Positions 5,833 to 23,208 of a stretch of 64,000 nt of DNA are shown in pieces. A program made the position numbers and the translations under genes. The notes under the pieces are model-generated. The model searched no databases, was not told the DNA's origin, and was given only the letters and a program-made list of their open reading frames with translations. How positions within the stretch are numbered: the first letter of the stretch is position 1; each line of letters begins with the position of its first letter. The stretch covers positions 62,001 through 126,000 of the forward strand of contig NZ_JAESVB010000003.1 in assembly GCF_020618775.1 (NCBI RefSeq). Reading direction: 5' to 3'. This DNA comes from Acidisoma silvae. Its GTDB lineage: Bacteria > Pseudomonadota > Alphaproteobacteria > Acetobacterales > Acetobacteraceae.

Positions 5833-6255
5833 ATGCGCCATCACCTTCAGCGTCACCTTGCCGTCAGCCTGACCATCGCCGCCGCAGCCTTGGCTTTTGC
5901 CACTGGCACCTCACCGGCGCGGGCGGACGGGGTAAGCGCCTATGACGGCGTCTATTCCGGTGCTGCCGCACCCGCCATGGCCATATCCGGCTGCGGCCAG
6001 CGCGAGACGGATATCATCATCCATGTGAAGAACGGGCAGGCCTGGACCCATCACCATCGCCTGTCCGGTCAGGTCGATGCGACCGGCAACCTGTCCATGC
6101 AGGACGGCAGCGGCACCGTGCAGATCACCGGCCAGATCGCCGCCAATAACCTGACGGCCAGCGAAACCGCGCCGGAAAAGCCAAAGAAGCTTGGTGCCGC
6201 CTATAACAATAACGGAACCATCTGCAGCTATACGATCAGCGCCAGCCGGGGTTAG
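5833..6255 (+). CDS. Small exported hypothetical protein
   Basis: This 140-residue protein has a clear Sec signal peptide (residues 1 to about 31: basic start, hydrophobic AVSLTIAAAALAFATG, cleavage near ARA-DG). The mature part contains AYDGVYSG, a CGQ and a late TICSYTISA, so two cysteines could form one disulfide. The repeated beta-strand pattern (LSGQVDATGNLSMQDGSGTVQITGQ is typical) suggests a small beta-rich periplasmic domain. I do not recognise a named family. Its stop overlaps the convergent flippase stop. Confidence 0.65.
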   Translation: MRHHLQRHLAVSLTIAAAALAFATGTSPARADGVSAYDGVYSGAAAPAMAISGCGQRETDIIIHVKNGQAWTHHHRLSGQVDATGNLSMQDGSGTVQITGQIAANNLTASETAPEKPKKLGAAYNNNGTICSYTISASRG

Positions 6256-7547
6256 CGGATCGCCCGCCAGGACGCGCCGCCGAACAGAAGCAATGCGATC
6301 GCGGATGAGGCGAGCACGGCTTCCGCCGCGCCCCGCGTGCCCCAAAGCGGCAGGAACAGCGCCAGAATCGCGAAAAGGCTGATACAGGCCAGGATGCGCG
6401 CCGCGATCACCTGGGTGGCGCGGCCCATGGCGATCAGCGCCGGCTCGAAAATCGCGCTGGCCAGGTCGAAAGCAGCCGCCAGCCCCAGCAGCACCAGCAG
6501 CGGATAGACGCCGCGATAGGCCTCGCCGCCGATGAGGCCCAGAATCGGCCGGCCGGCGATCAGCAGAATGACCATGATGACGGTGCCGGCCCCGCTGGCC
6601 AGACCCACCGCCCGCAGGATCAGCCGGCGGAAATCCTCACGCCCGCCCGCCGCATGGGCGCGGGCCAGTTCCGAGAAGATGGCGCGCGAGGCCATGTCCG
6701 AAATCCGCGCCAGTGCCTGGGTGAGCTGATAGGCCAGACGATATTGCCCGGCGCCCACCGGCCCTGCCGCCAGGCCCACCAGCAGCACCACGGCCTGCTT
6801 CGCCCCGGCATCCAGCGTGGTGTTGAGATTGGTCAGCCAGGAAAAGCGCCAGATGCCTTTATTCTCCAAAACCGCCAGCCGCAGGCGGCGGCGGTTGGGC
6901 CAGGCCATGGCGCCGGGCACCGTGCGCGCCACCGCCATCCAATAGGCAACGGCGGTGAAAATCTCACCCGCCGTCCAGGCCAGCAGAAAGCCGGGGACGG
7001 AAGGACCGCAGGCGACCACGGCCAGCGCACCGGCGAAGCGTGTGATCGGCGTCACCGCGTCCGCGCTGGCGCCCACGCCGAAACGGTCATGCAGGCGCAG
7101 GACGCCGACGGCGGTAGACCGCACGGTAAGCAGAATGACGAAGGTAAAGCCGAGCCCGTCCCAGGCGAGGCCGGGCGGCCAGCGCAACCAGTCCCCTAGC
7201 AGCCAGACGGCGAGCGCCGCCACCAGGCAGCCGACCAGCGCGCCGCCCAGGTCCAGCATCAGGCAGAAGCTCGCCAGACGCGCCGCCGCATCGCTCCGCC
7301 CTGCCTTCAAATGCGGCAGGCCGTAGCGAACGACGATCTGCCAGGTCTGGAAGCTGACAAAGGCAGCAACAGCCTGGGCGCCGCCGGTAATGAGGGTGAA
7401 TTCGCCGAAGCCGCGCGGCCCCAGCGTGCGGGCGGCCAGCGCCAGATAGACGAGGCTGAGAACCGCGCCGACCCCTTTGCCGGCCAGCAGCCAGCCGAGA
7501 TTGGCGAAAACCTTTCCCAGCGATCCTTCGCGCCACTGCTGCGCCAT
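6252..7547 (-). CDS. Lipopolysaccharide/oligosaccharide flippase (Wzx/MATE-like)
   Basis: This 431-residue integral membrane protein has about 12-14 hydrophobic helices. It starts with MAQQWREGSLGKVFANLGWLLAGKGVGAVLSL followed by LAARTLGPRGFGEFTLI, the characteristic first-helix pair of polysaccharide biosynthesis (Wzx-type) flippases. Such proteins move lipid-linked saccharides across the inner membrane. The ATG at 7547 is chosen; the further upstream frame is incompatible with the divergent gene at 7596. It is divergent from a CDP-glycerol glycerophosphotransferase-like gene, consistent with an envelope glycan or glycolipid role. The cargo is unknown. Confidence 0.83.
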   Translation of the reverse strand: MAQQWREGSLGKVFANLGWLLAGKGVGAVLSLVYLALAARTLGPRGFGEFTLITGGAQAVAAFVSFQTWQIVVRYGLPHLKAGRSDAAARLASFCLMLDLGGALVGCLVAALAVWLLGDWLRWPPGLAWDGLGFTFVILLTVRSTAVGVLRLHDRFGVGASADAVTPITRFAGALAVVACGPSVPGFLLAWTAGEIFTAVAYWMAVARTVPGAMAWPNRRRLRLAVLENKGIWRFSWLTNLNTTLDAGAKQAVVLLVGLAAGPVGAGQYRLAYQLTQALARISDMASRAIFSELARAHAAGGREDFRRLILRAVGLASGAGTVIMVILLIAGRPILGLIGGEAYRGVYPLLVLLGLAAAFDLASAIFEPALIAMGRATQVIAARILACISLFAILALFLPLWGTRGAAEAVLASSAIALLLFGGASWRAIR

Positions 7548-7595: not shown

Positions 7596-8708
7596 ATGAA
7601 AATCGCCTTCCTCTACATTGCCGAGGCTTATCAATGCTATCACGGCGCGTCCATCGCGCTGGAGCTGGCTCGGCGTGCCGGTGTGGAGGTCGTGAGCTAC
7701 TACAATGACCCGCAATCGCCGCATCACCTTGAGCGGATCAGGCAGGCCTATGGTGCAGAGCCGGTGCAATATCGCAGGCTCGAACGGTCATGGTTGACCG
7801 CGCTTCTGCAAACCGCCTTACGACGCTTCGGCATGTTCAAGATGCTGACCCTTTGGGACAATCATCGGGAACTCGATTCCTATGATGCGGTCTTCGCGGT
7901 CGAGGATACGGTTTGCTACGCGCGGCGCTTGGGCATCAGGCATCCCAAGCTGATCCTGCTGCCGCATGGTTTCGGCGACCGCGCACGGGGTTTTACCCAC
8001 CACACCAAGGGTTTCGATTTCGTCCTCGTCGCCGGACCCAAAAGCGTGCAGCGGATGGAAGCGCAGAATGTCGTGCCGCCGGGCGGCTATGCCGTGGTCG
8101 GTGCCGTGAAACTCGATGTCTGCGCGGCGTTGCAGCGGACACAGGCGCCGCTGTTCAAGGGTCAGCGTCCTGTCGTGCTCTATAACGCGCATAAGGCACC
8201 GAAACTGACCTCCTGGCCGCGTTTCATCGGCCCGATACTGGAGGATTTCGCACGACAGGACGATTTCAACCTCATCGTCGCGCCGCATGTGAAAATGTTC
8301 CGACGCCAGAACGTCCGCACCCGCGCCGATTGGGATGCGCGCAGCACGGATCATATCCTGATCGACACGGGATCAGACCGGTTGCTGGACATGACCTATA
8401 CGAGTGCGGCCGATATCTATGTCGGCGACGTCAGCAGCCAGGTTTATGAATTCCTGGCGACGCCGCGCCCCTGCGTCTTCCTCAATGCCCATGGCATCGC
8501 ATGGCAGGGCGATCCGAATTTCGCGCATTGGCAATTGGGCGATGTCGTGGACGATCCGAAGGATCTGATGGCAGCGATCCGCGCCGCGCCAGCGCGGCAC
8601 GCACTCTATCGGGCCAGGCAGGAGCAGATGGCCGAAGCCTCGCTCGGGGAGCGCCATGGGGCGACGGTTCGCGCCGCCGACGCCATTCTGCGCTTCATGC
8701 AGCGCTGA
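7596..8708 (+). CDS. CDP-glycerol glycerophosphotransferase-like protein (GT-B fold), paralogue 1
   Basis: The 370-residue protein begins MKIAFLYIAEAYQCYHGASIALELARRAG, a GT-B N-terminal fold. Motifs shared with TagB/TagF-type transferases are PKLILLPHGFGDRARGF, NLIVAPHVKMFRR and DMTYTSAADIYVGDVSSQVYEF, with the C-terminal region holding the nucleotide-diphospho-alcohol site of that family. It is clearly paralogous to the gene at 22051-23208 (same motifs, same length). Good ribosome site (AGGAG). TagB-like enzymes transfer a phosphoglycerol-like group from a CDP donor; here the ceramide-pathway neighbours suggest a lipid acceptor. That substrate is inference. The 3' end overlaps cerR convergently by 14 bp. 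Confidence 0.78.
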   Translation: MKIAFLYIAEAYQCYHGASIALELARRAGVEVVSYYNDPQSPHHLERIRQAYGAEPVQYRRLERSWLTALLQTALRRFGMFKMLTLWDNHRELDSYDAVFAVEDTVCYARRLGIRHPKLILLPHGFGDRARGFTHHTKGFDFVLVAGPKSVQRMEAQNVVPPGGYAVVGAVKLDVCAALQRTQAPLFKGQRPVVLYNAHKAPKLTSWPRFIGPILEDFARQDDFNLIVAPHVKMFRRQNVRTRADWDARSTDHILIDTGSDRLLDMTYTSAADIYVGDVSSQVYEFLATPRPCVFLNAHGIAWQGDPNFAHWQLGDVVDDPKDLMAAIRAAPARHALYRARQEQMAEASLGERHGATVRAADAILRFMQR

Positions 8709-9636
8709 GCCACCAGGCGGCGGTTTCCGCCATCCCGGCCGGCAGGTCGATCTGCGGCTGCCAAAGCACGGCCGGAATGGCCTTGGCAGGATCGACGCTC
8801 CAATCCCGGTGCAGAATTTCCCGCGCCTTGCCGCGCCCGAAGATGGCGGACTGGCCGGACAGTGACGCCATCCCTTCGCTGATCGCGCCCGCCGCCCGCA
8901 CAACCGCGTCCGGCGCCGGCACGGCAATTGGCGCGCGCCCGCGCAATGCGGTGCCAATGACCGCCAGCAATTCCCGCCAGCCATAGCCATCCAAGCGCGC
9001 GTCAGACAGCTCGTAGCAGCCACGCGCCACGTCGGATGTAGCCACCGCCAATGCCGCCGCCGCCGCATCGCGGGCATGGATCATGGCGATGCGCGGCTCC
9101 GGTGCCGCGATGGCCGGGGCGAAGCGGCCGGAGGCCAGACGCAGCATGGCCAGCCCCTCGCGGTCCCAGGGTCCATAGATCGCGGAGGGGCGCAGGATGA
9201 CGCAGCGGGTCTCGTCCAGCAGCGCGCGGACGGCGTCCTCCCCTGCCCGCTTGCTCTCGGCGTAAAGCGACAATCCGGGCGCGCGCGCCGCGAGAGAGGA
9301 CATCAGCACCAGCCGAGGGGTCTGCGCGCGCGCGACGATCGCCGCCAGCCGCGCCGCCCCATCCCGGTTGACGACCAGGAATTCGGCCCGGCTGCGGGCT
9401 TTGACGAGGCCGGCCGCGTGAATGACGACATCCGCGCCGCTCACCAGCTGACCGAGCGCCCGGGGGTCATCCAGCCCGCCCAGAACCAGATCCAGCGGCA
9501 GGTTTTCCAGCATGGGGTGGAGAGGCGCGCGCCGCGTCAGGAGGCGTATTTGCCAGCCGGCAGAGGCGAAGGCTTGGGCAATGTAGCGACCCAGGAAACC
9601 GGTGCCGCCCGTCAGGGCCGCAACCGGAAGCGTCAC
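8695..9636 (-). CDS. cerR: NAD(P)-dependent epimerase/dehydratase-type reductase, ceramide pathway (CerR-like)
   Basis: This is an extended SDR of 313 residues with the N-terminal dinucleotide loop GGTGFLG (10-16) and active-site pair Tyr125/Lys129 (LYAESK). It overlaps the acyl-ACP synthetase gene by an ATGA, giving tight coupling. In Caulobacter an SDR of this kind next to serine palmitoyltransferase (CerR) reduces the 3-keto group of the sphingoid/ceramide intermediate. The assignment to that role rests on context: all other ceramide genes lie within 12 kb. Another epimerase/dehydratase activity is not excluded by sequence. Confidence 0.72.
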   Translation of the reverse strand: MTLPVAALTGGTGFLGRYIAQAFASAGWQIRLLTRRAPLHPMLENLPLDLVLGGLDDPRALGQLVSGADVVIHAAGLVKARSRAEFLVVNRDGAARLAAIVARAQTPRLVLMSSLAARAPGLSLYAESKRAGEDAVRALLDETRCVILRPSAIYGPWDREGLAMLRLASGRFAPAIAAPEPRIAMIHARDAAAAALAVATSDVARGCYELSDARLDGYGWRELLAVIGTALRGRAPIAVPAPDAVVRAAGAISEGMASLSGQSAIFGRGKAREILHRDWSVDPAKAIPAVLWQPQIDLPAGMAETAAWWLSAA

Positions 9637-11384
9637 GCCGCCATCGCGGCGACGGTCGGCAGCGCCGCCGTCAGGTAGCTCTGCCGGGTCTTGGCGCGGC
9701 TGAGCTTGCCCGAGGAGGTGTAAGGCAGGCTGCCCGGCGGCACGAGCACCACGCGGCTGTCGACACCATGATGGCTGACGAGTGCGCCACGCACTTCCTC
9801 GATCAGCAGCTTGCCGGCTTCGGCATCCGCGATGCCGCGTGCCTCGACCGCGACCACCAGAACCTCGCTGCCATTCTCCTCGATGGAGAAGGCGGCGCAG
9901 TCACCGGTGCGGACCTGCGGCACGGCGCGTTCCACCGTCCATTCCAAGTCCTGCGGCCAGATATTGCGGCCATTGATGATGATCAGATCCTTGGCGCGAC
10001 CGGTAATCACCAGCGTCTCGCCGATGCGATAGCCAAGGTCGCCCGTTTCCAGCCAGCCGTCACCCGACAGGCTTTCCAGCGTCTCGACCGGGCGGCCCTT
10101 GTATTCATGCATGATGCTGGGACCGCGCGCGAAGACGCGCCCGACCGCACGATCCGCCAGCACCGCGCCGTCACGGCCCCGCACCTCGACCTTGTGACCC
10201 TTCAGGGGCAGGCCGCAGTGGACGACCGTGCGCGCGCGGGAATCCGCATGCTGCGGCGGCATCGCCAGCCCGTCCTGCTCCAGCCGGTCGAGATCGATGG
10301 TCTCGGTCTCGATGCCGAGGCCAACGGGGGCGAAGCTGATGGCGAGCGTCGCCTCGGCCATGCCGTAGCTCGGCAGGAAGGCCTGCGGCTTGAAACCGCA
10401 GACGCCGAAAGTCTCGGCGAATTGGGACAAAACCGCCGGGCGGATCATGTCGCCGCCGATGCCGGCGATACGCCAGCAGGACAGATCGAGGCTGTCACGG
10501 TCGATCGTCTTCTGGCGGCGCGTGCAAAGGTCGAAGCCGAAGCTCGGCGAATAGGAGATCGTGCCGCGGTTCTGGGAAATCAGCGACAGCCACACGCGCG
10601 GACGGCGGGCGAAATCCTGCGTCGCGATGAAATCGACGGTGACCTGACCGGCGAGCGGGCTGAGCAGGAAACCGACCAGTCCCATGTCGTGATACAGCGG
10701 CAGCCAGGAGACGGCGCGGTCCTCAGGCCCGATTTCCATGCCCTGGGCCAGTATCCCGGCGGCGTTGGCCATCAGGGCCTTCTGCTGAATGACGACGCCC
10801 TTGGGGAAGCGCGTGCTGCCCGACGAGAATTGCAGATAGGCGGTGTCTTCGGGCGTGATCTCGGGCAGGGCCACGTCCTGGATGTCGAGTTCAGCCAGAT
10901 CGGCGACGGTGCCGCAGAAGCGCAGGTTGCGGGTCTCGGCCATCGGCGCCAGCCAGGACAGTAAGGTCGTGGAGGCGAACAGCGCGCGCGCCTCGGCCTC
11001 ATCCGCCAAGCGCTCGATATGGGCGATATAGGTCTCGCGCCCGCCGAAGGCGAAGGGCAGCGGCATGGGCACGGGCACCAGCCCGGCATATTGGCAGGCG
11101 AAGAAGATGCGCACGAAATTCGGGCTGGTTTCGGCAATGATGGCGACGCTGTCACCACGTGACAGACCCAGACCCATCAGGCGATAGGCAAGATCCACCG
11201 CATCATGGCGCAAGCTGCGATAGCTCAGCGCTTCGCCCAATTCGCCTTGCGCGGAATAGAAGTTGAGACCGCTCATGCCCTCGGCCGCGTAATCCAGCGC
11301 TTCGGGCAAGGTGTCGAAATCACCGGCACGGAGCGCGAGGCCGCTCAGCGTGGGAGTTGGTCCAGTCGGAAGATGGAGATCCAA
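9633..11384 (-). CDS. Fatty-acyl-AMP ligase / acyl-ACP synthetase of the ceramide pathway
   Basis: This ANL-superfamily enzyme of 583 residues is of the FAAL type. It shows the adenylate P-loop YLQFSSGSTRFPKGV (183-197), WLPLYHDMGLVGFLLSPL, SYGMAEATLA, GDLGYRIGETLVITGRAKDLIIINGRNIWPQDLE, and the C-terminal catalytic lysine in SSGKLSR (Lys560). In Caulobacter the equivalent enzyme charges the dedicated carrier AcpR for ceramide synthesis. The only usable start is TTG at 11384: an in-frame ATG lies at 11417 but a TAG stop (11402-11400) separates it. It is overlapped by cerR at its 3' end and lies 42 bp after the NTP-transferase gene. Confidence 0.85.
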   Translation of the reverse strand: MDLHLPTGPTPTLSGLALRAGDFDTLPEALDYAAEGMSGLNFYSAQGELGEALSYRSLRHDAVDLAYRLMGLGLSRGDSVAIIAETSPNFVRIFFACQYAGLVPVPMPLPFAFGGRETYIAHIERLADEAEARALFASTTLLSWLAPMAETRNLRFCGTVADLAELDIQDVALPEITPEDTAYLQFSSGSTRFPKGVVIQQKALMANAAGILAQGMEIGPEDRAVSWLPLYHDMGLVGFLLSPLAGQVTVDFIATQDFARRPRVWLSLISQNRGTISYSPSFGFDLCTRRQKTIDRDSLDLSCWRIAGIGGDMIRPAVLSQFAETFGVCGFKPQAFLPSYGMAEATLAISFAPVGLGIETETIDLDRLEQDGLAMPPQHADSRARTVVHCGLPLKGHKVEVRGRDGAVLADRAVGRVFARGPSIMHEYKGRPVETLESLSGDGWLETGDLGYRIGETLVITGRAKDLIIINGRNIWPQDLEWTVERAVPQVRTGDCAAFSIEENGSEVLVVAVEARGIADAEAGKLLIEEVRGALVSHHGVDSRVVLVPPGSLPYTSSGKLSRAKTRQSYLTAALPTVAAMAA

Positions 11385-11426: not shown

Positions 11427-12206
11427 TCAGGCCGCGCGGCGCGCTGCCAGGGTTCTTTCGACAAGAAAGAGATCCGCGGGTTTATCGACGTCGACCGCCG
11501 CATCCGCGAAAGGAAGAGTAATTACGGCAACCGAAGCGCCGCATCGTTTGCTAAGAAGCCTAGTCGCCTTATCCATTGTCAAGGTTTTGAATGCATAACC
11601 GACGAGCGCCGACAATCCGATCAACCGCGCCATTGTCAGAGGATGCTTGCGATGCGCCTCTAATTTGCGCCAAAAATTGACAGCCTGGCTGGCTTTTGGG
11701 TGTTGCAACAGAAACAGGTTGCAGCCGCTGAACAGACCGTCGCGTAGGCGCAGCCATGTGCGGCGCGTGTCGGGATAAGCCGCGTAAATAACGTCCGATC
11801 TTGCCACGGCGGCCACGGCATCGACGCTGGACGGTGCCAGAGCGAGGAAAGATTTGACGATTTCAGGCGTCAGCAGCGCATGATCCGCCGTCGTCACAAG
11901 CAGTGGTGTGCCGAATTCTACCAATACGGCGGCAACACTGGCGCTTGGCGAAGTCTCGGCGTGACGGACCAGAACAGAGGCCGCTTCCGGCAAGTCATCG
12001 AGAATATCCACGCGTTCGCAGACGACGATGATGCGGCCGACGGCCGGTGTCCGTTGAAGGGCGCGAATGACGCGCAAAACCATGGGCGTGCCGTCCACGG
12101 GCAGCAGCGCCTTGTGCGAGACGCCGCCGGCGATTGCGAGCGCGTCGGCCGCGCCGTCGCGGCTGCCCGCAAGAATCAGGGCCGTCAGCGGGGCAGAGCC
12201 ACTCAT
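11427..12206 (-). CDS. MobA-like NTP transferase, sphingolipid cluster
   Basis: The 259-residue protein opens with the nucleotidyltransferase signature LTALILAGSRDG...HKALLPVDGTPMVLRVIRAL, then LVTTADHALLTPEIV, the metal-binding strand of MobA/IspD-like enzymes, and ends VDVDKPADLFLVE. Such enzymes couple NTP to a phosphorylated alcohol or sugar. Its ATG overlaps the stop of the N-acyltransferase gene (ATGA), so it is co-expressed with ceramide synthesis. In Caulobacter a nucleotidyltransferase of this locus is reported to make CDP-glycerate for ceramide phosphoglycerate; a similar CDP-activated headgroup donor here is a reasonable inference, and would feed the glycerophosphotransferase-like proteins. 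Confidence 0.75.
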   Translation of the reverse strand: MSGSAPLTALILAGSRDGAADALAIAGGVSHKALLPVDGTPMVLRVIRALQRTPAVGRIIVVCERVDILDDLPEAASVLVRHAETSPSASVAAVLVEFGTPLLVTTADHALLTPEIVKSFLALAPSSVDAVAAVARSDVIYAAYPDTRRTWLRLRDGLFSGCNLFLLQHPKASQAVNFWRKLEAHRKHPLTMARLIGLSALVGYAFKTLTMDKATRLLSKRCGASVAVITLPFADAAVDVDKPADLFLVERTLAARRAA

Positions 12207-13381
12207 GCCGATAGGGTTTTCTCGTAAACGCGGTAGGTCTTGTAGGCCCGCCCGCCGACCGCTTCCGCCAGATGGCGCATGGGCAAATTCTCTTCCAGAA
12301 TCCAGGACATCTCGACCGCCTTGATGCCCTTGGCCAAAGCCTCGCGCCGCAGGGATTCGACCACATGCAGCGCCAGAAGGCGGCCGAGCATGCCCTCGCC
12401 GTAGCGCTTGCGCACGCCCATCAAGGGCACGCGGGCGGTCGGCACGCCCGAGACTTTCAAGCGCCACAGCAGCTTGGCCCAGCCCAGCGGCAGCAGGCTG
12501 CCTGACAGATCGCGGATCGCCGCATTCAGGTCCGGCAGGCAAAGGCCGAAAGCCGCCGGCTCGCCGTCAACATCGGCGAACCAGATCAGTTTTTCATGCA
12601 AAAGGGGCTTCATGGCCTTGGCCATATGGTCGACCTCGGCCTCAGTGATCGGCACGAAACCCCAATGGGTCGCCCAGGCATCGTTGAAGATGCTGACGAG
12701 GGAGGCGATGTCCTGCTTCAGCGTCTTGAACTGCATGGGGCGCAGCGTGACGTTGCTGGGCAATCCCCGCGCCACCATGGCAGCGGAACGCGGCGGCAGG
12801 GCGGCCGTGGTGTCGCACAGATAGGCATAAAGATCCTGCACCTTGCCATAGCCGGCGGCATCGAGATGGCCGGCGACATAGGGCGCGTCATGCGGCATCA
12901 TCAGCATCGGCGGCGTATCGAAACCGTCGATCAGCAGCCCCGATTCCTCGTTGATTGAAAGGCTGAAAGGCCCCTGCGCGCGCTTGATGCCGCGATCGGC
13001 CAGCCAGGCCTCGGCAGTCGCCAGCAGTGCCGCGAAAACCGCTTTATCGTCGATGGCAACCAGCATGCCGAAATTGCCGATCGGCGCTTCAGGCGTGGGT
13101 TTCGCCAGATGATCGATCTGGGCCGAGATACGGCCGACATCGACGCCATTCTTCCGCGCCAGCCAGAAGGCGGCGTCGGCATGGCCAAAAAAGGGATTGC
13201 CCTTGGGCGTCAGCGCCGCCATCCGTTCAGAATGCAGCGGCGGAATATAGTTCGGATCGCGCGCCATGATGCGGTCCGGCAGGCGGATGAAGCGCTTCAG
13301 CAGCGCCGTCCCGGTCACGGGCAGGATTTCGATTCCGCCGGCGGAATCGCCCGCTGCAATACCGGATGTCTTGGACGCCAT
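12203..13381 (-). CDS. Bacterial ceramide synthase-like N-acyltransferase (GNAT-like, YghO family)
   Basis: The 392-residue protein has the YghO-type architecture: FIRLPDRIMARDPNYIPPL near residue 35, KGNPFFGHADAAFWLARKNG, and a C-terminal acyl-CoA N-acyltransferase-like domain ending LPMRHLAEAVGGRAYKTYRVYEK. Family members are often misnamed dATP pyrophosphohydrolase. The Caulobacter member next to spt (CerS/bCerS) N-acylates the sphingoid base, and the neighbours here are the same set, so ceramide synthase is the favoured role. ATG at 13381 is preferred over TTG at 13387. Its stop overlaps the start of the NTP-transferase. Confidence 0.78.
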   Translation of the reverse strand: MASKTSGIAAGDSAGGIEILPVTGTALLKRFIRLPDRIMARDPNYIPPLHSERMAALTPKGNPFFGHADAAFWLARKNGVDVGRISAQIDHLAKPTPEAPIGNFGMLVAIDDKAVFAALLATAEAWLADRGIKRAQGPFSLSINEESGLLIDGFDTPPMLMMPHDAPYVAGHLDAAGYGKVQDLYAYLCDTTAALPPRSAAMVARGLPSNVTLRPMQFKTLKQDIASLVSIFNDAWATHWGFVPITEAEVDHMAKAMKPLLHEKLIWFADVDGEPAAFGLCLPDLNAAIRDLSGSLLPLGWAKLLWRLKVSGVPTARVPLMGVRKRYGEGMLGRLLALHVVESLRREALAKGIKAVEMSWILEENLPMRHLAEAVGGRAYKTYRVYEKTLSA

Positions 13382-14758: not shown

Positions 14759-16059
14759 CGGGCCGGCTGCTTCCGCCGGAAAGTGCCGCTCAGCCGCCGC
14801 AGGCCGCCGGCCACCAGGGCGGTCGCGTCCTCCAAGCGGTTAAACAGCGGGTCGAGCGGCCCTTCGCTGGTATGCCGGGACGCGCGGCTGAACATCCAGC
14901 CGCAGAACAGGGTGAAGACCGCGAAGATCCCCCAGAGCGGCGCGCGCGGATCGATCAGCCCTGCCGTGCCGAGGGCGGCCGTCAGCTGGATGGCGTGATC
15001 GTACAGGATCAAAATCAGGAAGCCGACCGCGATACCGTATTGGCGCTTGGCGCGCTTGGCCGAAATGCCGATGGACACCGCCATCAGCGGCAGCACGGCC
15101 ATCGAGATCGAGCGGATGATGCGGCTGTAAAGCTCGCCGTTCAACCGGCGCAGCGGCTCGGGCGGGTGCGCATCGTAGCGCGCCGACCACAGCTCACCGG
15201 TCGTCATCTCCCGCTCGTCATCGCCGCGCTTGCGAAAGGCGCGCAGGGGCAACACGAAGGCGCGTTCCATGGCGGAGGTGGCCGAGGTCTCGGTTCCGAT
15301 CGTGCCGTTGGGCTTCAGATCCAGCCGTTTGCCATTGTTGAGCGTCAGAAAGACGTCGTTGCCATGTGCGACCAGGGACAGGCTGCCGGTGATGCCGGTG
15401 GTGACCTCCTCCGTCCCATTCTCCTTGCGCTGGAAGGCCAGCACATGGCGCAGCGCACCGGTGGCGCGGTCGACTCCATCGGCGGTGACGACCAGGTTTT
15501 TCGAGACATGAATGATCTGCCCGGGCGGGATCGTCGCATTCCAGCCGCTTTCGGTTGCCGCCCAGAAGGCCTCCCGGAAAGCGTAGCGTGCCAGGGGCTG
15601 AACATAACTGAACAGCCCATAGGCGACGAACATGAGGAGGAAGCCGAGGATGAAGAAGGGGCGGCTGATCCAGGCCATGGACAGGCCCGCATTCTGCATC
15701 GCTTCCAGCTCATTGTCCGCGCTCATCCGGGCGATGACGAAATAGATGCCCAGGAATAGCGCGGCCGGCAGGGCCAGGCCCAGGTATTGCGGCACCAGAT
15801 CGAGCAGCATGCGGCCGACGAACTGGGCCGGCACGTCCTGATCGGCCAGTAGATCGAAGAGGCGCAACAGGCGTTCCAGCAGCAGCGCCGGCAGCACCAC
15901 GAGCAGCGTCGCCGCGAAAGGGCGGGCGCAGAGCGAAAGCAGGTAGCGTTCCAGTGTGCGTGGGGACCGCGCGCGGGGGGTGCGGACAGAAAAGCCCAAG
16001 TTATCTACCGTTTCATTCGTCCATCGCCGCCATCGCAAAGGCGGCGGGCCATCGGTCAA
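14755..16059 (-). CDS. lptF: LptF-type lipopolysaccharide/lipid export permease
   Basis: Partner permease of LptG, 434 residues, with RTLERYLLSLCARPFAATLLVVLPALLLERLLRLFDLL (two halves of helix 1), MSADNELEAMQNAGLSMAWI (coupling helix to LptB), a periplasmic domain and KRAKRQYGIAVGFLILILYDH near the C-terminus. No ATG or GTG is available for the start; the frame offers TTG at 16059 and at 15999, and the core homology begins about 35 residues in, so the later TTG may be the true start. lptF is normally followed by lptG and then other envelope genes such as lptD; here ceramide genes follow. Confidence 0.85.
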   Translation of the reverse strand: MTDGPPPLRWRRWTNETVDNLGFSVRTPRARSPRTLERYLLSLCARPFAATLLVVLPALLLERLLRLFDLLADQDVPAQFVGRMLLDLVPQYLGLALPAALFLGIYFVIARMSADNELEAMQNAGLSMAWISRPFFILGFLLMFVAYGLFSYVQPLARYAFREAFWAATESGWNATIPPGQIIHVSKNLVVTADGVDRATGALRHVLAFQRKENGTEEVTTGITGSLSLVAHGNDVFLTLNNGKRLDLKPNGTIGTETSATSAMERAFVLPLRAFRKRGDDEREMTTGELWSARYDAHPPEPLRRLNGELYSRIIRSISMAVLPLMAVSIGISAKRAKRQYGIAVGFLILILYDHAIQLTAALGTAGLIDPRAPLWGIFAVFTLFCGWMFSRASRHTSEGPLDPLFNRLEDATALVAGGLRRLSGTFRRKQPAR

Positions 16060-16223: not shown

Positions 16224-16724
16224 ATGATGCTTTCGTCCAAACGCGCGGCCAAGGCCTGTTTTTTGGGGCTGCTGCTGGCCGCGTCCGGTGGTTTTCAGGC
16301 ATTTGCCGCGCAATCCGGCACAGCCTGCGACGCACCGGGCGTGTCCCCGACCGCGCCGCATTTGCTGATGACGGTTACCAATATCCGCCATAGCGGTGGC
16401 AATATCACCTTCACCCTTTACGGCGACGTGCCGGGAAAATTCCTGGCCCATCACGGAAGCATCGCGATCATTCGTGTGCCGGTGACGGCCAATTCCGTCG
16501 AAGGCTGCTTCGCGCTCTCAGGCCCCGGCACCTATGCGGTGGCGATCTATGACGATGCCAATAACAACCACCGCTTCGACAAGACTTTCGTCGGACTGCC
16601 CGCCGAGGACTACGGCTTCTCAAACAATCCGCGCAACCTTCTGGCGCCGCCGGGTTTCCACGCCGTGGCTTTCCCGGTGACGGCGGCCGGCGCTCATATC
16701 ACCATGGCATTGCATCCGTTCTGA
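16224..16724 (+). CDS. DUF2141 domain exported protein
   Basis: This 166-residue protein has a signal peptide (residues 1 to about 28, cleavage near AFA-AQ). The mature domain carries the DUF2141 hallmark: GTYAVAIYDDANNNHRFDKTFVG followed by LPAEDYGFSNNPRN, plus strands typical of a small beta-sandwich. The molecular function of DUF2141 is not established. It is divergent from lptF, so both share the 164-bp upstream region, and its last 26 bp overlap the convergent phosphoesterase gene. Confidence 0.85.
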   Translation: MMLSSKRAAKACFLGLLLAASGGFQAFAAQSGTACDAPGVSPTAPHLLMTVTNIRHSGGNITFTLYGDVPGKFLAHHGSIAIIRVPVTANSVEGCFALSGPGTYAVAIYDDANNNHRFDKTFVGLPAEDYGFSNNPRNLLAPPGFHAVAFPVTAAGAHITMALHPF

Positions 16725-17631
16725 CGGGCAGCGTGAAACGCCAGTCGCCCGCTGGCTCGAACACATTGCTTATCGGATTGTAGCGTCGCAACGTGGATGT
16801 GAGATGCCAGCCCGCAGGCGTTCTTTCGATACGATGCAGGTGCCATCCGGCCCATTCGGGATGCACAGTACTTGCCAGCGCCGCCGGCACGCCTAAGGAT
16901 GGTATGGCGGTTACCGGCCCCTTTACCCCGGCCAGGCGGGTGATGTGGTGATGGCCGGACAGGACCAGTTCGGCGCCATGCCGCGCCAGAACGTCGCGCA
17001 AGGCCGCCCGGTCGCGCAGCGCCTTGCGTCTTCCGCCTCGGCTCATGGTCGGCGGATGGTGAATGAGCACGATGCGAAAAAGCCCCTGCCGGCCTGTCAA
17101 TTCCAGCAGATCCGCCAGCCTTTGCCGTTGCGCGTCACCGACAGCGCCGCCGGCATAAAAGATCGGCGTCAGAACGGCCGAATTGACGCCGATGATCGCG
17201 ACATCGCCTCTGCGCCGCAGAAAGGGAAAGCCCTCCGCGCCGGATGCCGCTTCCTTTGCATCGCTGCACATCCAGTCACGCCATTGACCAAGACTGTCTT
17301 GCCATGGCAACGGAATTGTCACATCATGGTTACCGGGGACTACCGAGAGATCGTTCGGTGATCCCATCTGTTGGAGATATCGGCGCGCCGCCAGGAATTC
17401 GGCCGGCTCCCCGAAATTCGTCAAATCTCCTGTCAGGGCAATATGATCAGGCGCATGGGCCGCGATATCGGCAAGCAGAGCCGCGGCCGGGCGCCATGTA
17501 TGAATTCGTTTGCGCTTTCTGTGCCAGGATAGTTTGGCAAGAAAGCTCTTCATATTTCGACTTCGCATCGACAGCGCTTCCGCCGGGGGCGGCAAATGCA
17601 GGTCGGATAGATGGGCAAGGCTGAATTGCAT
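16699..17631 (-). CDS. Calcineurin-like metallophosphoesterase
   Basis: This is a 310-residue class III phosphoesterase with the full metal-site set: LAHLSDLHLP (Asp10, His12), LTGDLTNFGEPAE (Asp69), VVPGNHDVT (Asn101-His102-Asp103), LIHHPPT and LSGHHHITR. No signal peptide or membrane helix, so it is probably cytosolic. Such enzymes cleave phosphomonoesters or diesters including lipid headgroup phosphates. It is divergent from the lipid kinase with zero spacing: its ATG begins at 17631, the same base as the kinase TTG. Position suggests a lipid phosphate or nucleotide-diphospho-lipid substrate, but that is inference. Confidence 0.85.
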   Translation of the reverse strand: MQFSLAHLSDLHLPPPAEALSMRSRNMKSFLAKLSWHRKRKRIHTWRPAAALLADIAAHAPDHIALTGDLTNFGEPAEFLAARRYLQQMGSPNDLSVVPGNHDVTIPLPWQDSLGQWRDWMCSDAKEAASGAEGFPFLRRRGDVAIIGVNSAVLTPIFYAGGAVGDAQRQRLADLLELTGRQGLFRIVLIHHPPTMSRGGRRKALRDRAALRDVLARHGAELVLSGHHHITRLAGVKGPVTAIPSLGVPAALASTVHPEWAGWHLHRIERTPAGWHLTSTLRRYNPISNVFEPAGDWRFTLPVRTDAMPW

Positions 17632-18611
17632 TGGGTCAGATAACCTCTTCCACGCCAGCGCCCAAGCGGATCGGCTTGATTATCAATCCGCGCAGCCACG
17701 CCAACAAGACGAAGCCCGCCGATTTCTCCGAAGTGCTGGCGCGCTATCCTGAGGTGCAGGCGGCATCGCCGGACGGCTTACCCGAATTGCAGGCGACATT
17801 GACGCACTTCGCGGCCGATGGCGTGACACTGCTGATCGTCTGCGGCGGCGACGGCACTTTGCGCGACGTCGTCAGCGCGCTGCCGCAATCCTATCCGGGC
17901 CAAATGCCCGAAATCGCCATTCTCTCGGCCGGCAATACCAATCTTGCCGCCCGCGTTCTGGGCAGCGCCGGCAGCGACAGCGCCGCGCTGGAAAAGCTGC
18001 TTGCCGCCGCTGCGGCGAACCAGCTGACCCGAAAAGTCTGCCCGCTGCTGCAAGTCTCCTGGCCGGAGGAACCGGCGCGTGCACCCGTGCGCGGCTTCCT
18101 GTTCGGCGCCGCAAGCTTCACCGAGGTCAAGCGCGTGGCCAATGCCGCCGTGCATCGCAGCGGGCTGCGCCACGGCATGGAAGTCGCCGTCACCGTCACC
18201 GTCACGGCCCTGCGCGCGATTCTCGGCCGCGACCCCGCCATCAAAAAAGGCTGGCCGATGACCCTGACGGTAGGCGACCGCCCGGCCGTCGATGGCCAGC
18301 GGATGCTGGTCATGGCGACGACCCTGGACAGTCTCATGCTCGGCCTCTGGCCCTTCTGGGGCAAAGGCCAGGGCGGCATCCGCTGGCTGGATATCGACGC
18401 CTCCCCTCGCCGCCTTGCCGCCGGGCTGACCAATATGCTGATGCACCGGCCGAAACCCTGGATGCTGCGCGGCGGCTATCGCTCAGGCCGTGGCAATAGC
18501 CTGCGCCTGCTGCTGACCCAGCCTTTCATTCTGGACGGTGAGGCTTTCGAGCCGCGCGCCGGTGGCGTTTTGCTGTCCACGGCTGCCAGTGTCACGGTCG
18601 TCGCTCCGTGA
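17631..18611 (+). CDS. Diacylglycerol-kinase-fold lipid kinase, likely ceramide kinase (CpgB-like)
   Basis: The 326-residue protein begins with RIGLIINPRSH (substrate/nucleotide strand) and has the catalytic GGDGT at 72-76 (IVCGGDGTLRDVVSAL), then LSAGNTNLAARVLG, the variant of the DAGK nucleotide loop. The remainder fits the beta-sandwich second domain. In Caulobacter a kinase of this fold next to spt (CpgB) phosphorylates ceramide. The same neighbour order here (kinase, unknown protein, spt, acp) supports that role. Start is TTG at 17631; an in-frame TGA at 17622 excludes anything earlier. Downstream gene overlaps by GTGA. Confidence 0.8.
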   Translation: MGQITSSTPAPKRIGLIINPRSHANKTKPADFSEVLARYPEVQAASPDGLPELQATLTHFAADGVTLLIVCGGDGTLRDVVSALPQSYPGQMPEIAILSAGNTNLAARVLGSAGSDSAALEKLLAAAAANQLTRKVCPLLQVSWPEEPARAPVRGFLFGAASFTEVKRVANAAVHRSGLRHGMEVAVTVTVTALRAILGRDPAIKKGWPMTLTVGDRPAVDGQRMLVMATTLDSLMLGLWPFWGKGQGGIRWLDIDASPRRLAAGLTNMLMHRPKPWMLRGGYRSGRGNSLRLLLTQPFILDGEAFEPRAGGVLLSTAASVTVVAP

Positions 18612-19495
18612 CATCCGATGCCGGCCGGGATCTTCAGTCCCTGGTCGCTGCGGAGCTTGATCGCCCTGCCCCGGCAGCGCTCGGCGCCCTGGTGCGGCAA
18701 ATTCTCGACCGACATGGGCCAAGCGTCGCAGCCATTCTGTTCTACGGCTCCTGCCGGCGGACGAGCGATCTTACCGGACTCATCGATTTTTACGTTCTGT
18801 ATGACGGGCATCGCGCCTTTCATCGCCGGACCATCCCGGCTGCTTTGAACGCGGCGCTGCCGCCCAATGTCATGCTGATGGCGCCGCCGGCAGGCGAGAC
18901 CGGGCTGCGTGCCAAAGTCGCCATGCTGTCGGTCCGGCAATTCGCCCGCCGCGTGCGGCCCGGCTCGCTGGATACGACGATCTGGACGCGCTTCTCCCAG
19001 CCTTGCTCTCTGCTTTATGCGCGGGATGGCTCCGCGCGTCGGCGCGTGACCGATTTGCTGGCGGAAGCGGCCGAAACGGCTCTCGCCTGGGGGCATTGGC
19101 TGAACCCGGCAACCGCCGAGTCCGGGGCGTTATGGGAAGGGCTCTTCGCCCAAACCTATCGGGCGGAGCTGCGGCCGGAACGCGCCAACCAGCCAAGCGT
19201 TCTGTATGAGACCAATGCGGCCTGGTTCGACGCGCTGTTTCAATCGGGCGGAAAACCGGCATCCCAGGCGCCTTTCGGCGGCTGGACGCTGCGCCGCATC
19301 TGCGGCAAGCCGCTGAATTTGATGCGACTGGTGAAGGCCGCCTTCACCTTTACCGGCGGAGCCGATTATCTGCTGTGGAAGCTACAGCGCCACAGCGGTG
19401 TCCGCCTGGACCTGTCGCCCTGGCAGCGCCGCCACCCCATCCTGGCCGCCCCCGCCATTCTGTGGCGGCTGCGGCGGATGGGGGTTTTGCGCTAG
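18608..19495 (+). CDS. Unrecognised nucleotidyltransferase-like protein between lipid kinase and spt
   Basis: This 295-residue soluble protein is coupled to the kinase by a GTGA overlap. Residues 43-66 (ILFYGSCRR...GLIDFYVLYD) look like the GS...D core of the pol-beta nucleotidyltransferase fold, but the second carboxylate is missing (D60-F-Y), so activity may be lost or altered. A C-terminal basic, aromatic segment (residues 235-295, including two tryptophan-containing LLWKLQRH and ILWRLRRM stretches) could touch membrane lipid. By position it matches the gene between the ceramide kinase and spt in Caulobacter (cpgC there, from memory). Function not assigned. Confidence 0.65.
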   Translation: MTSDAGRDLQSLVAAELDRPAPAALGALVRQILDRHGPSVAAILFYGSCRRTSDLTGLIDFYVLYDGHRAFHRRTIPAALNAALPPNVMLMAPPAGETGLRAKVAMLSVRQFARRVRPGSLDTTIWTRFSQPCSLLYARDGSARRRVTDLLAEAAETALAWGHWLNPATAESGALWEGLFAQTYRAELRPERANQPSVLYETNAAWFDALFQSGGKPASQAPFGGWTLRRICGKPLNLMRLVKAAFTFTGGADYLLWKLQRHSGVRLDLSPWQRRHPILAAPAILWRLRRMGVLR

Positions 19496-20694
19496 GCGAC
19501 GACCGCCGCGCCGACGATGCCAAGCTCCTCGCCGACCGCCGTAATGGCGTCCACCGCGAAGCGGATATCGGCCTCGCTATGGGCCGCGCTGACACTGGTG
19601 CGCAGCAGGGATTCGCGCGCCGGGGTCGCCGGCGGCAGCGCCAGATTGACGTAAAGACCGCGCGCCAGAAGCTTGTTCCAGAAGGCGACCGCAAGTTCCG
19701 GGCTGGTCAGCCGGACCGAAACGATGGGGCTCGGCGTCGGGCCGAGGCGGAATCCGGCCTTAGACAGTCCCTGATAGAGCGCGTCCGCATTTCGCATCAG
19801 CGTCCGCCGTAGCTCGGGCTTTGCCGCCATGACCTTGAAAGCCTGCGTTACGCTGGCCGCGATCGACGGCGGCATGGAGGCCGTGAACATATAGGCGCGG
19901 GATGCGACGCGCAGCACTTCGAACCCCGGCATGTCGGAGGCACAGAAGCCACCGATGCTGCCCAGGCTTTTGCTGAAGGTGCCGACGACGAAATCGACAT
20001 CGGCCTCGACCCCGGCCACTTCCTGCAAGCCGCGCCCGTTCTCGCCCAGCACGCCCAGGGAATGGGCTTCGTCGACGAGGAGATAGGCGCCTGTTTCACG
20101 TTTGACAGCCGCGAATTCGGCCAGGGGCGCGACGTCGCCCAGCATGCTGTAGATACCCTCGACGACGATCAGCTTATCGCCCGGCTTGTCGGCCAGGAAT
20201 TTCAGGCGGCGATAGAGGTCATCCGGGTCATTATGCCGGAAGCGCGTCACCTGGGCTTCCGACAGGCGCGAGCCGTCATAGATGCTGGCATGGCTGTCGG
20301 CGTCCAGCAGCAGGTGGTCATCCCGCCCGGCGAGCGCCGCCATGATGCCGAGATTGGCCTGATAGCCGGTGGTGAAGACCATGGCATCCTGCCGGCCCAG
20401 GAAGCTCGCGACCTGCTTTTCCAGGGCGACATGGGCGCTATAGGTGCCATTGGCGATGCGCGAACCGGTGGTGCCGGTGCCTTCGGTCTGCAACGCCGAG
20501 ACGGCCGTCTCGATGCAGCTCTCATCGAAGGTCAGGCCCAGATAGTTATTGGTGCCGAGCAGAACCACGGTCTGGCCGTTCAGCCGGGCCGAGGTCGGCG
20601 AGAGGATTTCATCGAAGGCGACCGTGAAAGGATTGGTCCCGGCCGCCCGCAGCCCCGCCAGGGACTGCGTCAGATGTGCGTATTTCCCAAGCAT
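19492..20694 (-). CDS. spt: Serine palmitoyltransferase
   Basis: This is a PLP enzyme of the alpha-oxoamine synthase family that condenses serine with a fatty acyl thioester to 3-ketosphinganine, the first step in sphingolipid synthesis. 400 residues. Key features: GTNNYLGL (47-54), GTGTTGSRIANGTYSAH (72-88), DADSHASIYDG with stacking His135, LLVDEAHSLGVLGENGRGL with Asp208/His211, and PLP lysine Lys242 in GTFSKSLGSIGGF. KBL and BioF/HemA share the fold; the adjacent dedicated ACP and ceramide genes argue for Spt. The ATG at 20694 follows the acp stop by one base. Confidence 0.88.
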   Translation of the reverse strand: MLGKYAHLTQSLAGLRAAGTNPFTVAFDEILSPTSARLNGQTVVLLGTNNYLGLTFDESCIETAVSALQTEGTGTTGSRIANGTYSAHVALEKQVASFLGRQDAMVFTTGYQANLGIMAALAGRDDHLLLDADSHASIYDGSRLSEAQVTRFRHNDPDDLYRRLKFLADKPGDKLIVVEGIYSMLGDVAPLAEFAAVKRETGAYLLVDEAHSLGVLGENGRGLQEVAGVEADVDFVVGTFSKSLGSIGGFCASDMPGFEVLRVASRAYMFTASMPPSIAASVTQAFKVMAAKPELRRTLMRNADALYQGLSKAGFRLGPTPSPIVSVRLTSPELAVAFWNKLLARGLYVNLALPPATPARESLLRTSVSAAHSEADIRFAVDAITAVGEELGIVGAAVVA

Positions 20695-20695: not shown

Positions 20696-20998
20696 TCAGG
20701 CGGCTGTCCGCGCCTGTTCGGCTGTGATGGCCCGCGCCAGATCACCAACGGTCGCGATTTCGGCGACGGTATCGAGCGGAATGACGGTATTGAAGGCCGT
20801 CTCCAGCTCCATGATGAAGTCCATGACCGCGATCGAATCGAGATTGAGATCGCGCAGGATATTGGTCTCGGGCGTGACGGCATCCGCCATCGCGGGGGTC
20901 ACGCCGTCCAGGGTGCGGATGACGGCGACGATCGTCGCGTTCACGTCCTTTTCGCTGGGCAAGGTCTGGTCTCCATGACTGACTGCGCCCGCAGCCAT
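20696..20998 (-). CDS. Dedicated acyl carrier protein for sphingolipid synthesis (AcpR-like)
   Basis: This 100-residue acyl carrier protein has the phosphopantetheine serine Ser55 in LNLDSIAVMDFIMELE, a slightly divergent form of the usual DSL motif (DSI). It has an N-terminal extension of about 18 residues compared with AcpP. It directly precedes spt, one base before its start, so the two are translated together. In Caulobacter the equivalent AcpR delivers the acyl chain to Spt after loading by the acyl-ACP synthetase; the same enzyme type lies at 9633-11384 here. Confidence 0.88.
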   Translation of the reverse strand: MAAGAVSHGDQTLPSEKDVNATIVAVIRTLDGVTPAMADAVTPETNILRDLNLDSIAVMDFIMELETAFNTVIPLDTVAEIATVGDLARAITAEQARTAA

Positions 20999-21151: not shown

Positions 21152-22054
21152 ATGCTGCGGCCGATGGATCTTTGGCGCATCGCGATCATCAACCGCCCGC
21201 TGACCGCGATTCTGGCGGAAGGATTCGATGAGAGCGACGTCACCTGGGCGCCCGCGATGCCTGCGCAATCCTTCCGGGCCGACCCTTTCGGCCTGTGGCG
21301 CGACGGGCATCTGCATGTCTTCGCCGAAGGTTTCAGCTACCGCGACCGGCGCGGCTATATCGACCTGCTGATCTATGACGCGAACCTGACCCTGCGCGAC
21401 AGCCGCACGGTGCTGCGCGAACCCTGGCATCTGTCCTACCCTTTTGTCTTCGAGGCCGGGGGCGAGACCTGGATGCTGCCGGAGGCCTTCCAGTCCGGCA
21501 CGCTGACGCTGTACCGCGCGAAGCGCTTCCCCGATCAATGGGAGCCAGCCTGCCAGATCCCGCTCGATGGGGCGGCCATCGACGCGACGCCGTTCTTCTG
21601 GCAGGGCCGCTGGTGGCTGTTCTACGCGCCGTCGCACAGCAAGGCCGCGAAACAGAGCCATCTGCATATCGCCTATGCCGATCGCTTGACTGGACCGTGG
21701 CAGGTGCATCCCGGCAACCCGGTCCATATCAGCAACGCCAGCGCGCGGCCCGGCGGCACGCCCATTGTGCAAGGTGGATCGATCATCCTGCCGGTTCAGG
21801 ATTGCCGTGGCACCTATGGCGCTGCCATCCGGCTACTAGAAATTTCGCAGATGGATGAAAGATCATTCGTGGCGAAAGATCGTGACGGATTGCAAGCGCC
21901 AGCCTGGATGGAACCCTATACGGACGGGCTGCACACGCTTTCGGCCGTCGGCGGCATGACGCTGCTGGACGTGAAACGGATGGACGCGTCGCTATCGGCC
22001 AAGACATCCCGGCTTTATCATATCCTTCGGCAGAAGCTGGCGCGCGCCGGATGA
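21152..22054 (+). CDS. GINT1-like beta-propeller protein (GH43-like fold)
   Basis: The 300-residue protein has repeated propeller blades: SFRADPFGLWRDGHLHVFAE, then YIDLLIYD, LSYPFVFEAGGETWMLPEA, LTLYRA, DATPFFWQGRWWLFYAP and GGTPIVQGGSIILPVQD. This matches the N-terminal five-bladed domain of plant glucosamine inositolphosphorylceramide transferase (GINT1) and bacterial proteins named after it; the C-terminal glycosyltransferase domain of the plant enzyme is absent. No signal peptide. It overlaps the following glycerophosphotransferase-like gene by ATGA and is divergent from acp-spt, placing a sphingolipid-headgroup-associated domain in a ceramide locus. Its own activity is unknown. Confidence 0.7.
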   Translation: MLRPMDLWRIAIINRPLTAILAEGFDESDVTWAPAMPAQSFRADPFGLWRDGHLHVFAEGFSYRDRRGYIDLLIYDANLTLRDSRTVLREPWHLSYPFVFEAGGETWMLPEAFQSGTLTLYRAKRFPDQWEPACQIPLDGAAIDATPFFWQGRWWLFYAPSHSKAAKQSHLHIAYADRLTGPWQVHPGNPVHISNASARPGGTPIVQGGSIILPVQDCRGTYGAAIRLLEISQMDERSFVAKDRDGLQAPAWMEPYTDGLHTLSAVGGMTLLDVKRMDASLSAKTSRLYHILRQKLARAG

Positions 22055-23208
22055 AGATCGCCTTTCTCTATAATCACGACGCCATTCATCAGATTCCGCA
22101 TACCATCCCGGTGGCATCAAGCCTGGCCCAGCGCGGCATCGACGTTCATGTGCTGACATCAAGCGCCGAGCAGCGGGAAACGGCGGCAAGCCTGATCGCG
22201 CCGGGCGCGCAGATCACGTTCCATGACTTGACGCTGCGCTGGCCCGACCGCGCTGCCGATCGCCTGCTGCGGCCCATCGCACCCTATAAGCGCATCGCCA
22301 TTCTGCGCGAACACGCGAGGCTTCTCGATACATTCGACGCCATCGTAGTGCCGGAAACGACGACGACGCTGCTGCGCACGCGCTTCGGCGTCACCCACCC
22401 GAAACTGATCTATATTCCGCATGGCGCCGGTGACGGCGCGGCGGGTTTCCGCAATACGACAAGAAATTTCGATCTTGTTCTTCTGTCAGGTGAGAAGGTG
22501 CGAGACCGCATGCTGTCCGGTGGACTGATCACCCCGGACAATCATGCCATCATCGGCTATCCGAAATTCGATATTTCACTCGGCCGTCCCGCCGAAAGAT
22601 TTTTCGACAACGACCTGCCGACCGTCGTCTACAATCCGCATTTCAATCCACATATTTCATCCTGGTATCCCTCCGGACGCGCGGTGCTGGACTGGTTTGC
22701 GCGGCAGGACCGGTTGAACCTGATTTTCGCGCCGCATACCATGCTGTTCAAACGCGCTCTGCATATCACGCCCATTCACAAGCGCATCGGCTGGCGCGGC
22801 AGCCTGCCGAAATATTTGCGTCATCATCCACGCATCCATATCGATACCGGCAGCAGGCGGTCCGTCGATATGAGCTATACGCGCGCCACCGATATCTATC
22901 TCGGTGATGTATCAAGCCAGATCTATGAATGGATCGCGCGGCCGAGACCCGCGATTTTCTTCAATACGGGCGGGGAGGATCGCGCGGCCTCCCCCGATTT
23001 CGGCCATTGGTCGCTGGGTGACGTCATCCGCAGCGTCGCGGAATTGCCGGCGGTGCTGGACCGCGCGCTGGCTGACCCTGATGCGTTCAGGCCGCAACAG
23101 GAAGCGCGGCGCGATCTGACCTTTTCAATGACGGCAACACCGGCCGGCGAGCGGGGCGCGGAGGCTATTCTGGCGTTTATGGAGCGTTCTGCGCGTTCAC
23201 CTGGGTAG
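22051..23208 (+). CDS. CDP-glycerol glycerophosphotransferase-like protein (GT-B fold), paralogue 2
   Basis: The 385-residue paralogue of the gene at 7596 shares MKIAFLYNHD, PKLIYIPHGAGDGAAGF, VVYNPHFNPHISSW, NLIFAPHTMLFKR and DMSYTRATDIYLGDVSSQIYEW, the last being the family's CDP-binding region. Soluble or peripheral; no membrane helix. Co-translated with the GINT1-like propeller (ATGA overlap). It probably transfers a phospho-alcohol from a CDP donor to a lipid or glycan. Two such paralogues, one at each end of the ceramide island, suggest two successive transfers or two acceptors. Confidence 0.76.
   Translation: MKIAFLYNHDAIHQIPHTIPVASSLAQRGIDVHVLTSSAEQRETAASLIAPGAQITFHDLTLRWPDRAADRLLRPIAPYKRIAILREHARLLDTFDAIVVPETTTTLLRTRFGVTHPKLIYIPHGAGDGAAGFRNTTRNFDLVLLSGEKVRDRMLSGGLITPDNHAIIGYPKFDISLGRPAERFFDNDLPTVVYNPHFNPHISSWYPSGRAVLDWFARQDRLNLIFAPHTMLFKRALHITPIHKRIGWRGSLPKYLRHHPRIHIDTGSRRSVDMSYTRATDIYLGDVSSQIYEWIARPRPAIFFNTGGEDRAASPDFGHWSLGDVIRSVAELPAVLDRALADPDAFRPQQEARRDLTFSMTATPAGERGAEAILAFMERSARSPG

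Follow-up and report, generated by a model that had tools for sequence, protein, structure and literature searches.

The window analysed here is a stretch of 64,000 nucleotides from Acidisoma silvae (positions 62,001 to 126,000 of contig NZ_JAESVB010000003.1). Its positions 6252-23208 hold an island of sixteen genes, in which genes for ceramide synthesis stand among those for a putative lipid headgroup and its export. The island lies on contig C3 of a draft genome (G000; 5.4 Mb, 98.9% complete), and its genes were recognised from the listing of open reading frames (ORFs) and from Pfam and NCBIfam matches. Every gene named in an initial annotation of this DNA is a long ORF at or near the place assigned to it. 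Three genes set the island apart from the phosphosphingolipid locus of Caulobacter crescentus: those for two GT-B transferases, GTB1 (7596-8708, plus strand) and GTB2 (22051-23208, plus), and that for a stand-alone five-bladed propeller of the GINT1_N type (21152-22054, plus).

For comparison, spt, the serine palmitoyltransferase gene, was located in 39 of 289 class-level genomes, and 20 stretches around it in these genomes, each no longer than 20 kb, were set beside the island (class-level loci below). The island's own spt (19492-20694, minus; NF047599, E 7e-193) is certain in its identity. It is accompanied by acpR, for an acyl carrier protein (ACP; 20696-20965, minus, start uncertain; PP-binding 1.4e-11), a cerR-like ceramide reductase gene (8695-9636, minus; Epimerase 9.2e-21), and an aasR-like acyl-ACP synthetase gene (9633-11384, minus; AMP-binding 9.4e-53); cerR adjoins aasR in class-level loci, which share this order. 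The gene cerS encodes a GNAT-like bacterial ceramide synthase (12203-13387, minus; Acetyltransf_1 2.6e-4) with 45-51% identity to the cerS matches of six class-level loci. A CpgB-like ceramide kinase (17631-18611, plus; DAGK_cat 1.3e-13) is followed by a CpgC-like protein with a nucleotidyltransferase-type motif (18608-19495, plus), assigned by profile A3 and gene order. The remaining members are a nucleotidyltransferase (NTase) of the CC_1153 type (11427-12206, minus; NTP_transf_3 4.5e-15, CTP_transf_3 2.7e-6), a metallophosphoesterase whose place is kept in class-level loci (16699-17631, minus; Metallophos 2.6e-13), LptG2-like and LptF2-like permeases (13697-14758 and 14755-16059, both minus; LptF_LptG 4.4e-63 and 3.1e-55), and a Wzx/MATE-like flippase (6252-7547, minus). 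The Pfam score of the flippase (Polysacc_synt 7.7e-9) was obtained from an ORF start at 7652, and 7547 is its likely start. An overlap of the flippase and GTB1 genes was rejected, for the conserved stretch antisense to the GTB1 start is broken by stops in several relatives.

In Caulobacter, the locus CC_1168-CC_1152 makes ceramide phosphoglycerate (CPG) and CPG2 (PMC11324152, PMC12275187). CC_1161, CC_1160, CC_1159, and CC_1152 are read from these papers as CpgC, CpgB, CpgA, and CpgD. CpgB and CpgC are needed for CPG, which persists in CpgA and CpgD mutants (PMC11324152, PMC12275187). Since Caulobacter's own sequences lie outside the comparison, correspondence with CC_ genes was judged from gene order, protein family, and the descriptions in PMC11324152; a primer search for cpgD in seven genomes of the genus of G155, made to reach Caulobacter, matched none. 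Profile A3 detects the CpgC-like gene in 13 of the 20 class-level loci (E 3e-71 or better), with the kinase adjoining in 11 of these. A gene with the CDP (cytidine diphosphate)-alcohol phosphotransferase motif stands beside both in eight loci. Six (L217, L220, L221, L222, L228, and L236) have the full order aasR-cerR-spt, CpgC-kinase-CDP-alcohol phosphotransferase, phosphoesterase-lptF2-lptG2, in agreement with the numbering in PMC11324152. By family matches and order, the island holds the ceramide genes, CpgB, and CpgC of such a locus, and by homology and gene order also the CC_1153-type NTase and the CC_1158-type phosphoesterase. The initial annotation had counted the kinase, a "degenerate nucleotidyltransferase" (the CpgC-like protein), the NTP-transferase, the phosphoesterase, and the flippase as additions to ceramide synthesis. 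Because they share family and order with genes of the published locus (PMC11324152), these genes and the Lpt permeases are not new.

Nor does "degenerate" fit the CpgC-like protein, whose family is found in 31 of 120 Acetobacteraceae genomes and in 13 of the 20 class-level loci; for the same reason the idea of a degraded enzyme was rejected. In its YGS...D motif, YG and D are invariant. The island protein has no Pfam or NCBIfam match; among 21 family members Pfam gave one stray DUF488 match, and among 30 a single one had an NCBIfam match, weakly to Lnu(H). Searched against the PDB, profile A3 yielded no more than a weak match to a nucleotidyltransferase (9xbd, E 0.042), and profile A6 found 9xbd at E 0.027 and two chance receptor matches. 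PMC11324152 remarks on a CDP-diacylglycerol synthase domain in CC_1161. A likeness to the Tam41-type CDP-diacylglycerol synthase found no support in the PDB, Pfam, or NCBIfam searches. Six of the 36 spt-bearing Acetobacteraceae genomes (G021, G049, G068, G086, G098, and G100) have no CpgC match, and may make ceramide without a CpgC-linked phosphate headgroup.

Two Caulobacter enzymes are not found. At E 0.001, CpgA (a CDP-alcohol phosphotransferase) has no match in G000, where only two PF01066 genes occur, both on another contig than the island. For CpgD (CTP:phosphoglycerate cytidylyltransferase), a protein of locus L297 was taken as CpgD-type because of where it lies and because it matches CTP:phosphocholine cytidylyltransferase and 4jd0, the relative named in PMC12275187. 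As a query, this protein reaches E 6e-81 or better in all six chosen CpgA-type genomes (one of them, G194, being its own source). In ten chosen Acetobacteraceae genomes, G000 among them, it gives only 9.5e-7 to 2.3e-16 (the best in G056), and in G000 the best match is E 1.6e-8, 31% over 113 query residues. Among 18 genomes, which were chosen rather than drawn, CpgA and CpgD are jointly present in five (G155, G388, G416, G418, and G422) and jointly absent in 13; of the 17 among these that are known to bear GT-B, 13 lack both and four have both. Weak CpgA-like matches in two of the 13 (G410, E 5.7e-4; G414, E 2.5e-4) were counted as absent.

The NTase is not CpgD. That identity was rejected, as at E 0.01 a PDB sequence search with the NTase finds TTHA0179 (2dpw, E 6.1e-22) and nothing else, and in L297 and L298 a separate CpgD-type gene follows cerS and the CC_1153-type NTase on the opposite strand. 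The NTase gene overlaps cerS by 4 bases in the island, and an overlap is likewise found in L297, L298, L299, and L300. At 11 other PF12804 places of G000, searched in short stretches that may cut long ORFs, no ORF of at least 130 residues matched the NTase at E 1e-3.

GTB1 and GTB2 were described initially as paralogues like CDP-glycerol glycerophosphotransferase (PF04464, Glyphos_transf). Of 52 aligned GT-B sequences 14 reach PF04464 at E 0.001 (best 1.4e-6), more than match any other family; on their own, the window pair match it only weakly, under the Pfam cut-off of 22.1 bits (GTB1, E 0.005, 16.3 bits; GTB2, E 0.018, 14.5 bits). In the re-aligned fold list, TagF and TarL come first, at 12-17% identity. 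HG.G and APH occur in all 52 sequences, and GD.SSQ..E, which aligns with TarL at E 0.012, in 49. The histidines of HG.G and APH may be equivalent to the two catalytic histidines of TagF. A PDB search with the GT-B profile A1 gave nothing at E 0.1. In a tree of 75 rows, rooted at midpoint, GTB1 and GTB2 fall into clades 1 (18 rows) and 2, respectively (support 100/100). A third clade joins the GTB2 side and consists of nine Acetobacteraceae rows, eight of them near spt (the exception is L104).

The propeller matches GINT1_N with E 1.7e-34 (119.7 bits; cut-off 27). In its 300 residues Pfam finds no second, glycosyltransferase domain of the GINT1 kind, only GINT1_N and a weak GH43 match under the cut-off. 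Propellers occur in 37 of the 120 Acetobacteraceae genomes, 27 at 3.6e-91 or better and ten at 1.8e-56 or weaker, and the split into close and weak types was placed by us at this gap. All ten weaker propellers are in genomes without spt, indicating that the GINT1_N domain as such is not sphingolipid-specific. Of six weaker propeller proteins that were read, five have 120 to 290 residues ahead of the propeller, and the sixth has about 50. A tandem pair of propeller genes is found near a GT-B gene at L104:12232-14542, and the Acidisoma locus L137 has the order GINT, GTB1, GINT, GTB2, flippase, GTB1.

Across the 120 Acetobacteraceae genomes, GT-B is found in 21, spt in 36, and CpgC in 31. In many genomes scoring covered 19 first-look candidates only, so that a weak copy may be missed in these counts, and profiles A2 and A6 derive partly from the surveyed genomes. 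GT-B and spt occur together in 20 genomes (Fisher p 4e-12, uncorrected for relatedness, as are all the co-occurrence tests), and the close-type propeller occurs with spt in 26 of 27. Both GT-B (21/21) and the close-type propeller (27/27) are found only alongside CpgC. In 14 of the 21 genomes a GT-B gene and spt are no more than 2.3 kb apart, and in G001 they are 7.2 kb apart; in the other six GT-B lies elsewhere or, in G056, spt has no match. Finding GT-B paralogues in genomes without spt had been named as grounds for giving up the proposed module; the outcome mostly favours the module, with spt in 20 of 21 GT-B genomes and G056 as the exception. G056 carries the GT-Bs, propeller, flippase, NTase, Lpt pair, phosphoesterase, kinase, and CpgC. 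At the place of spt it has an alpha-oxoamine synthase-like protein (L301:1138-2346), with 33% identity to the island Spt and its best score, under the cut-off, against BioF; this protein may make another sphingoid base. G053, a genome of the same genus as G000, has no match to spt, GT-B, propeller, or CpgC, so that even among members of that genus the island has a patchy distribution. The island cerS is matched in just five of 40 fetched Acetobacteraceae loci (L069-L108), many of which hold spt, so the ceramide synthase there is diverged or elsewhere.

A wider search was made of genome contigs with A1 (25 GT-Bs) and the pattern GD[VA]SSQ[VI][YA]E. The best 80 loci come from Acidisoma, Sphingomonas, Endobacter, Acetobacter, Gluconacetobacter, Komagataeibacter, Novosphingobium, Erythrobacteraceae, Kordiimonadales, Nevskia, and others. 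Among these 80, the NTase is found in 40 (in 26 within 1 kb of GT-B), kinase or CpgC in 19, and spt in six; in 27 a flippase match lies no more than 1 kb from GT-B, and 24 have no NTase, kinase, CpgC, spt, cerS, flippase, or propeller match. Kinase, CpgC, spt, and cerS are missing from the fetched stretch in 24 of the 26 loci with a close NTase. Sphingomonas loci link GT-B to kinase, CpgC, and NTase, with no spt nearby. In eight Komagataeibacter loci (L151, L153, L154, L155, L157, L158, L160, and L161) a clade-2 GT-B is the only island gene to find a match in the stretch fetched.

With CpgA and CpgD not found, and two GT-Bs and a propeller present, this organism probably makes a sphingolipid headgroup other than that of Caulobacter, as its gene content indicates. 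These absences, and GT-Bs that track CpgC, support the proposal that the ceramide genes are surrounded by a module for a headgroup and its export, unlike Caulobacter's. That the island makes and exports a phosphosphingolipid on the Caulobacter ceramide phosphoglycerate core, finished in a different way, is our best explanation, and we consider it about evenly poised. By homology, AasR, AcpR, Spt, CerS, and CerR would make dihydroceramide, the CpgB-like kinase would make ceramide-1-phosphate, and the CpgC-like protein would act next, perhaps to activate the ceramide phosphate or to build the first headgroup unit. The CC_1153-type NTase would then yield a CDP- (or other nucleoside diphosphate, NDP-) activated alcohol or similar compound, and the TagF/TarL-like GTB1 and GTB2 would transfer the activated unit, standing in for the CpgA/CpgD step that is missing. 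These two roles are suggested because the enzymes for the second phosphoglycerate are not found and TagF-like GT-Bs are in the module, often beside the NTase; a CDP-activated alcohol would be a plausible route. The GH43/GH130-like propeller may add, transfer, or trim a headgroup sugar. Finally, the flippase would turn the lipid over and LptF2/LptG2 would carry it to the outer membrane. Export by such a flippase and LptF2/G2 is also proposed in PMC11324152, where transport is not investigated further.

Two points weigh against this explanation. In Sphingomonas sp. TZW2008 (G414:C8:360458-362739, L146) the CpgA-like match has a weak CpgD-like one (full-length, E 8.3e-5) at a distance of 1.3 kb; the two are possibly diverged CpgA/CpgD or another CDP-alcohol pathway. 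Published ceramide glycosyltransferases are the second point, as they stand outside the comparison.

In a reading that is rather unlikely yet deserves weight, the GT-Bs are ordinary NDP-sugar glycosyltransferases. Together with the propeller they would make a glycosylated phosphoceramide with no CDP-alcohol, and the product would be a loose bacterial counterpart of the glycosyl inositol phosphoceramides of plants. Such a reading has to contend with TagF and TarL at the top of the fold list, PF04464 as the most-matched family, and a cytidylyltransferase-related NTase close to GT-B in 26 of the best 80 loci. It is improbable that the island runs the CPG2 pathway in effect, with the step of CpgA (CDP-glycerate to CPG2) falling to the GT-Bs and that of CpgD to the NTase. 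Here lost and gained genes would map to one step and the weak cytidylyltransferase matches of the NTase would be accounted for, but the NTase type adjoins a separate CpgD-type gene in L297 and L298, a single transfer needs less than two GT-Bs and a propeller, and four of 17 GT-B genomes keep both gene sets. Equally hard to credit is plain CPG, with the first phosphoglycerate only, made by the CpgB/CpgC core with GT-Bs and propeller as chance neighbours that modify another cell-surface glycan: it agrees with the Caulobacter mutants and with Komagataeibacter clade-2 GT-Bs away from sphingolipid genes, but not with the strict CpgC co-occurrence, the closeness of GT-B to spt in 14 of 21 genomes, or the Sphingomonas linkage.

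The preferred explanation, a differently finished phosphosphingolipid, can be carried further, though only tentatively and with some doubt, to a teichoic-acid-like extension on a ceramide anchor. The paired TagF/TarL-like enzymes would be starter and extender, giving a Gram-negative outer-membrane sphingolipid with a phospho-alcohol headgroup decorated by the propeller. If so, the propeller would be common to GINT1, an enzyme of phosphoceramide synthesis, and to a phosphosphingolipid pathway of bacteria.

The island also has a DUF2141 gene (16224-16724, plus; PF09912 E 5.4e-25) at the place of CC_1157 in the numbering, a gene deemed probably unrelated in PMC11324152. Its relatives occur in seven of the 40 fetched Acetobacteraceae loci, four of them (L090, L092, L094, and L096) from genomes without a CpgC match. 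The left flank has a YmdB-like gene, 5-FTHF (5-formyltetrahydrofolate) cyclo-ligase, and thiamine phosphate synthase. The nearest gene there, a family-2 glycosyltransferase-like gene at 4699, is matched in none of the mapped Acetobacteraceae, GT-B-scan, or class-level loci. A pyridine nucleotide-disulphide oxidoreductase and an acyl-CoA dehydrogenase form the right flank.

CPG2 supports survival of Caulobacter without lipopolysaccharide (PMC12275187), and the phosphosphingolipid mutants studied in PMC11324152 and PMC12275187 are of the Caulobacter set. Among the papers listed in literature searches, and as judged from those listings, none places a PF04464-like or GINT1_N gene in the synthesis of bacterial sphingolipids. 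The present comparison picks out a second gene set in Acetobacteraceae, Sphingomonadales, and other proteobacteria. This set shares the CpgB/CpgC core where the core is found, and in 13 of the 17 GT-B genomes tested it lacks both CpgA and CpgD. The comparison further connects GINT1_N with phosphosphingolipid loci of bacteria, namely in Acetobacteraceae, and CC_1153, whose function PMC11324152 and PMC12275187 leave open, with GT-B transferases.

Compared with known systems, the GT-Bs differ from TagF/TarL (PF04464) in their low identity, their size (about 370-385 residues), their Pfam score under the cut-off, and their location beside ceramide genes. The propeller has 10-14% identity in the compared rows to the five-bladed propeller enzymes of GH130/GH43. 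With GINT1 (glucosamine inositolphosphorylceramide transferase 1) it has in common the family of the N-terminal domain and the phosphoceramide context; plant GINT1 carries a second, GT64 domain, unlike the island protein. The Caulobacter locus (PMC11324152) is nearest: it shares with the island spt, acpR, cerR, aasR, cerS, the CpgB kinase, and CpgC in matching blocks, as well as the CC_1153-type NTase, the CC_1158-type phosphoesterase, the second LptF/LptG pair, and the flippase (CC_1166), whereas in the island CpgA and CpgD are not found and two GT-Bs and a GINT1_N propeller are present instead.

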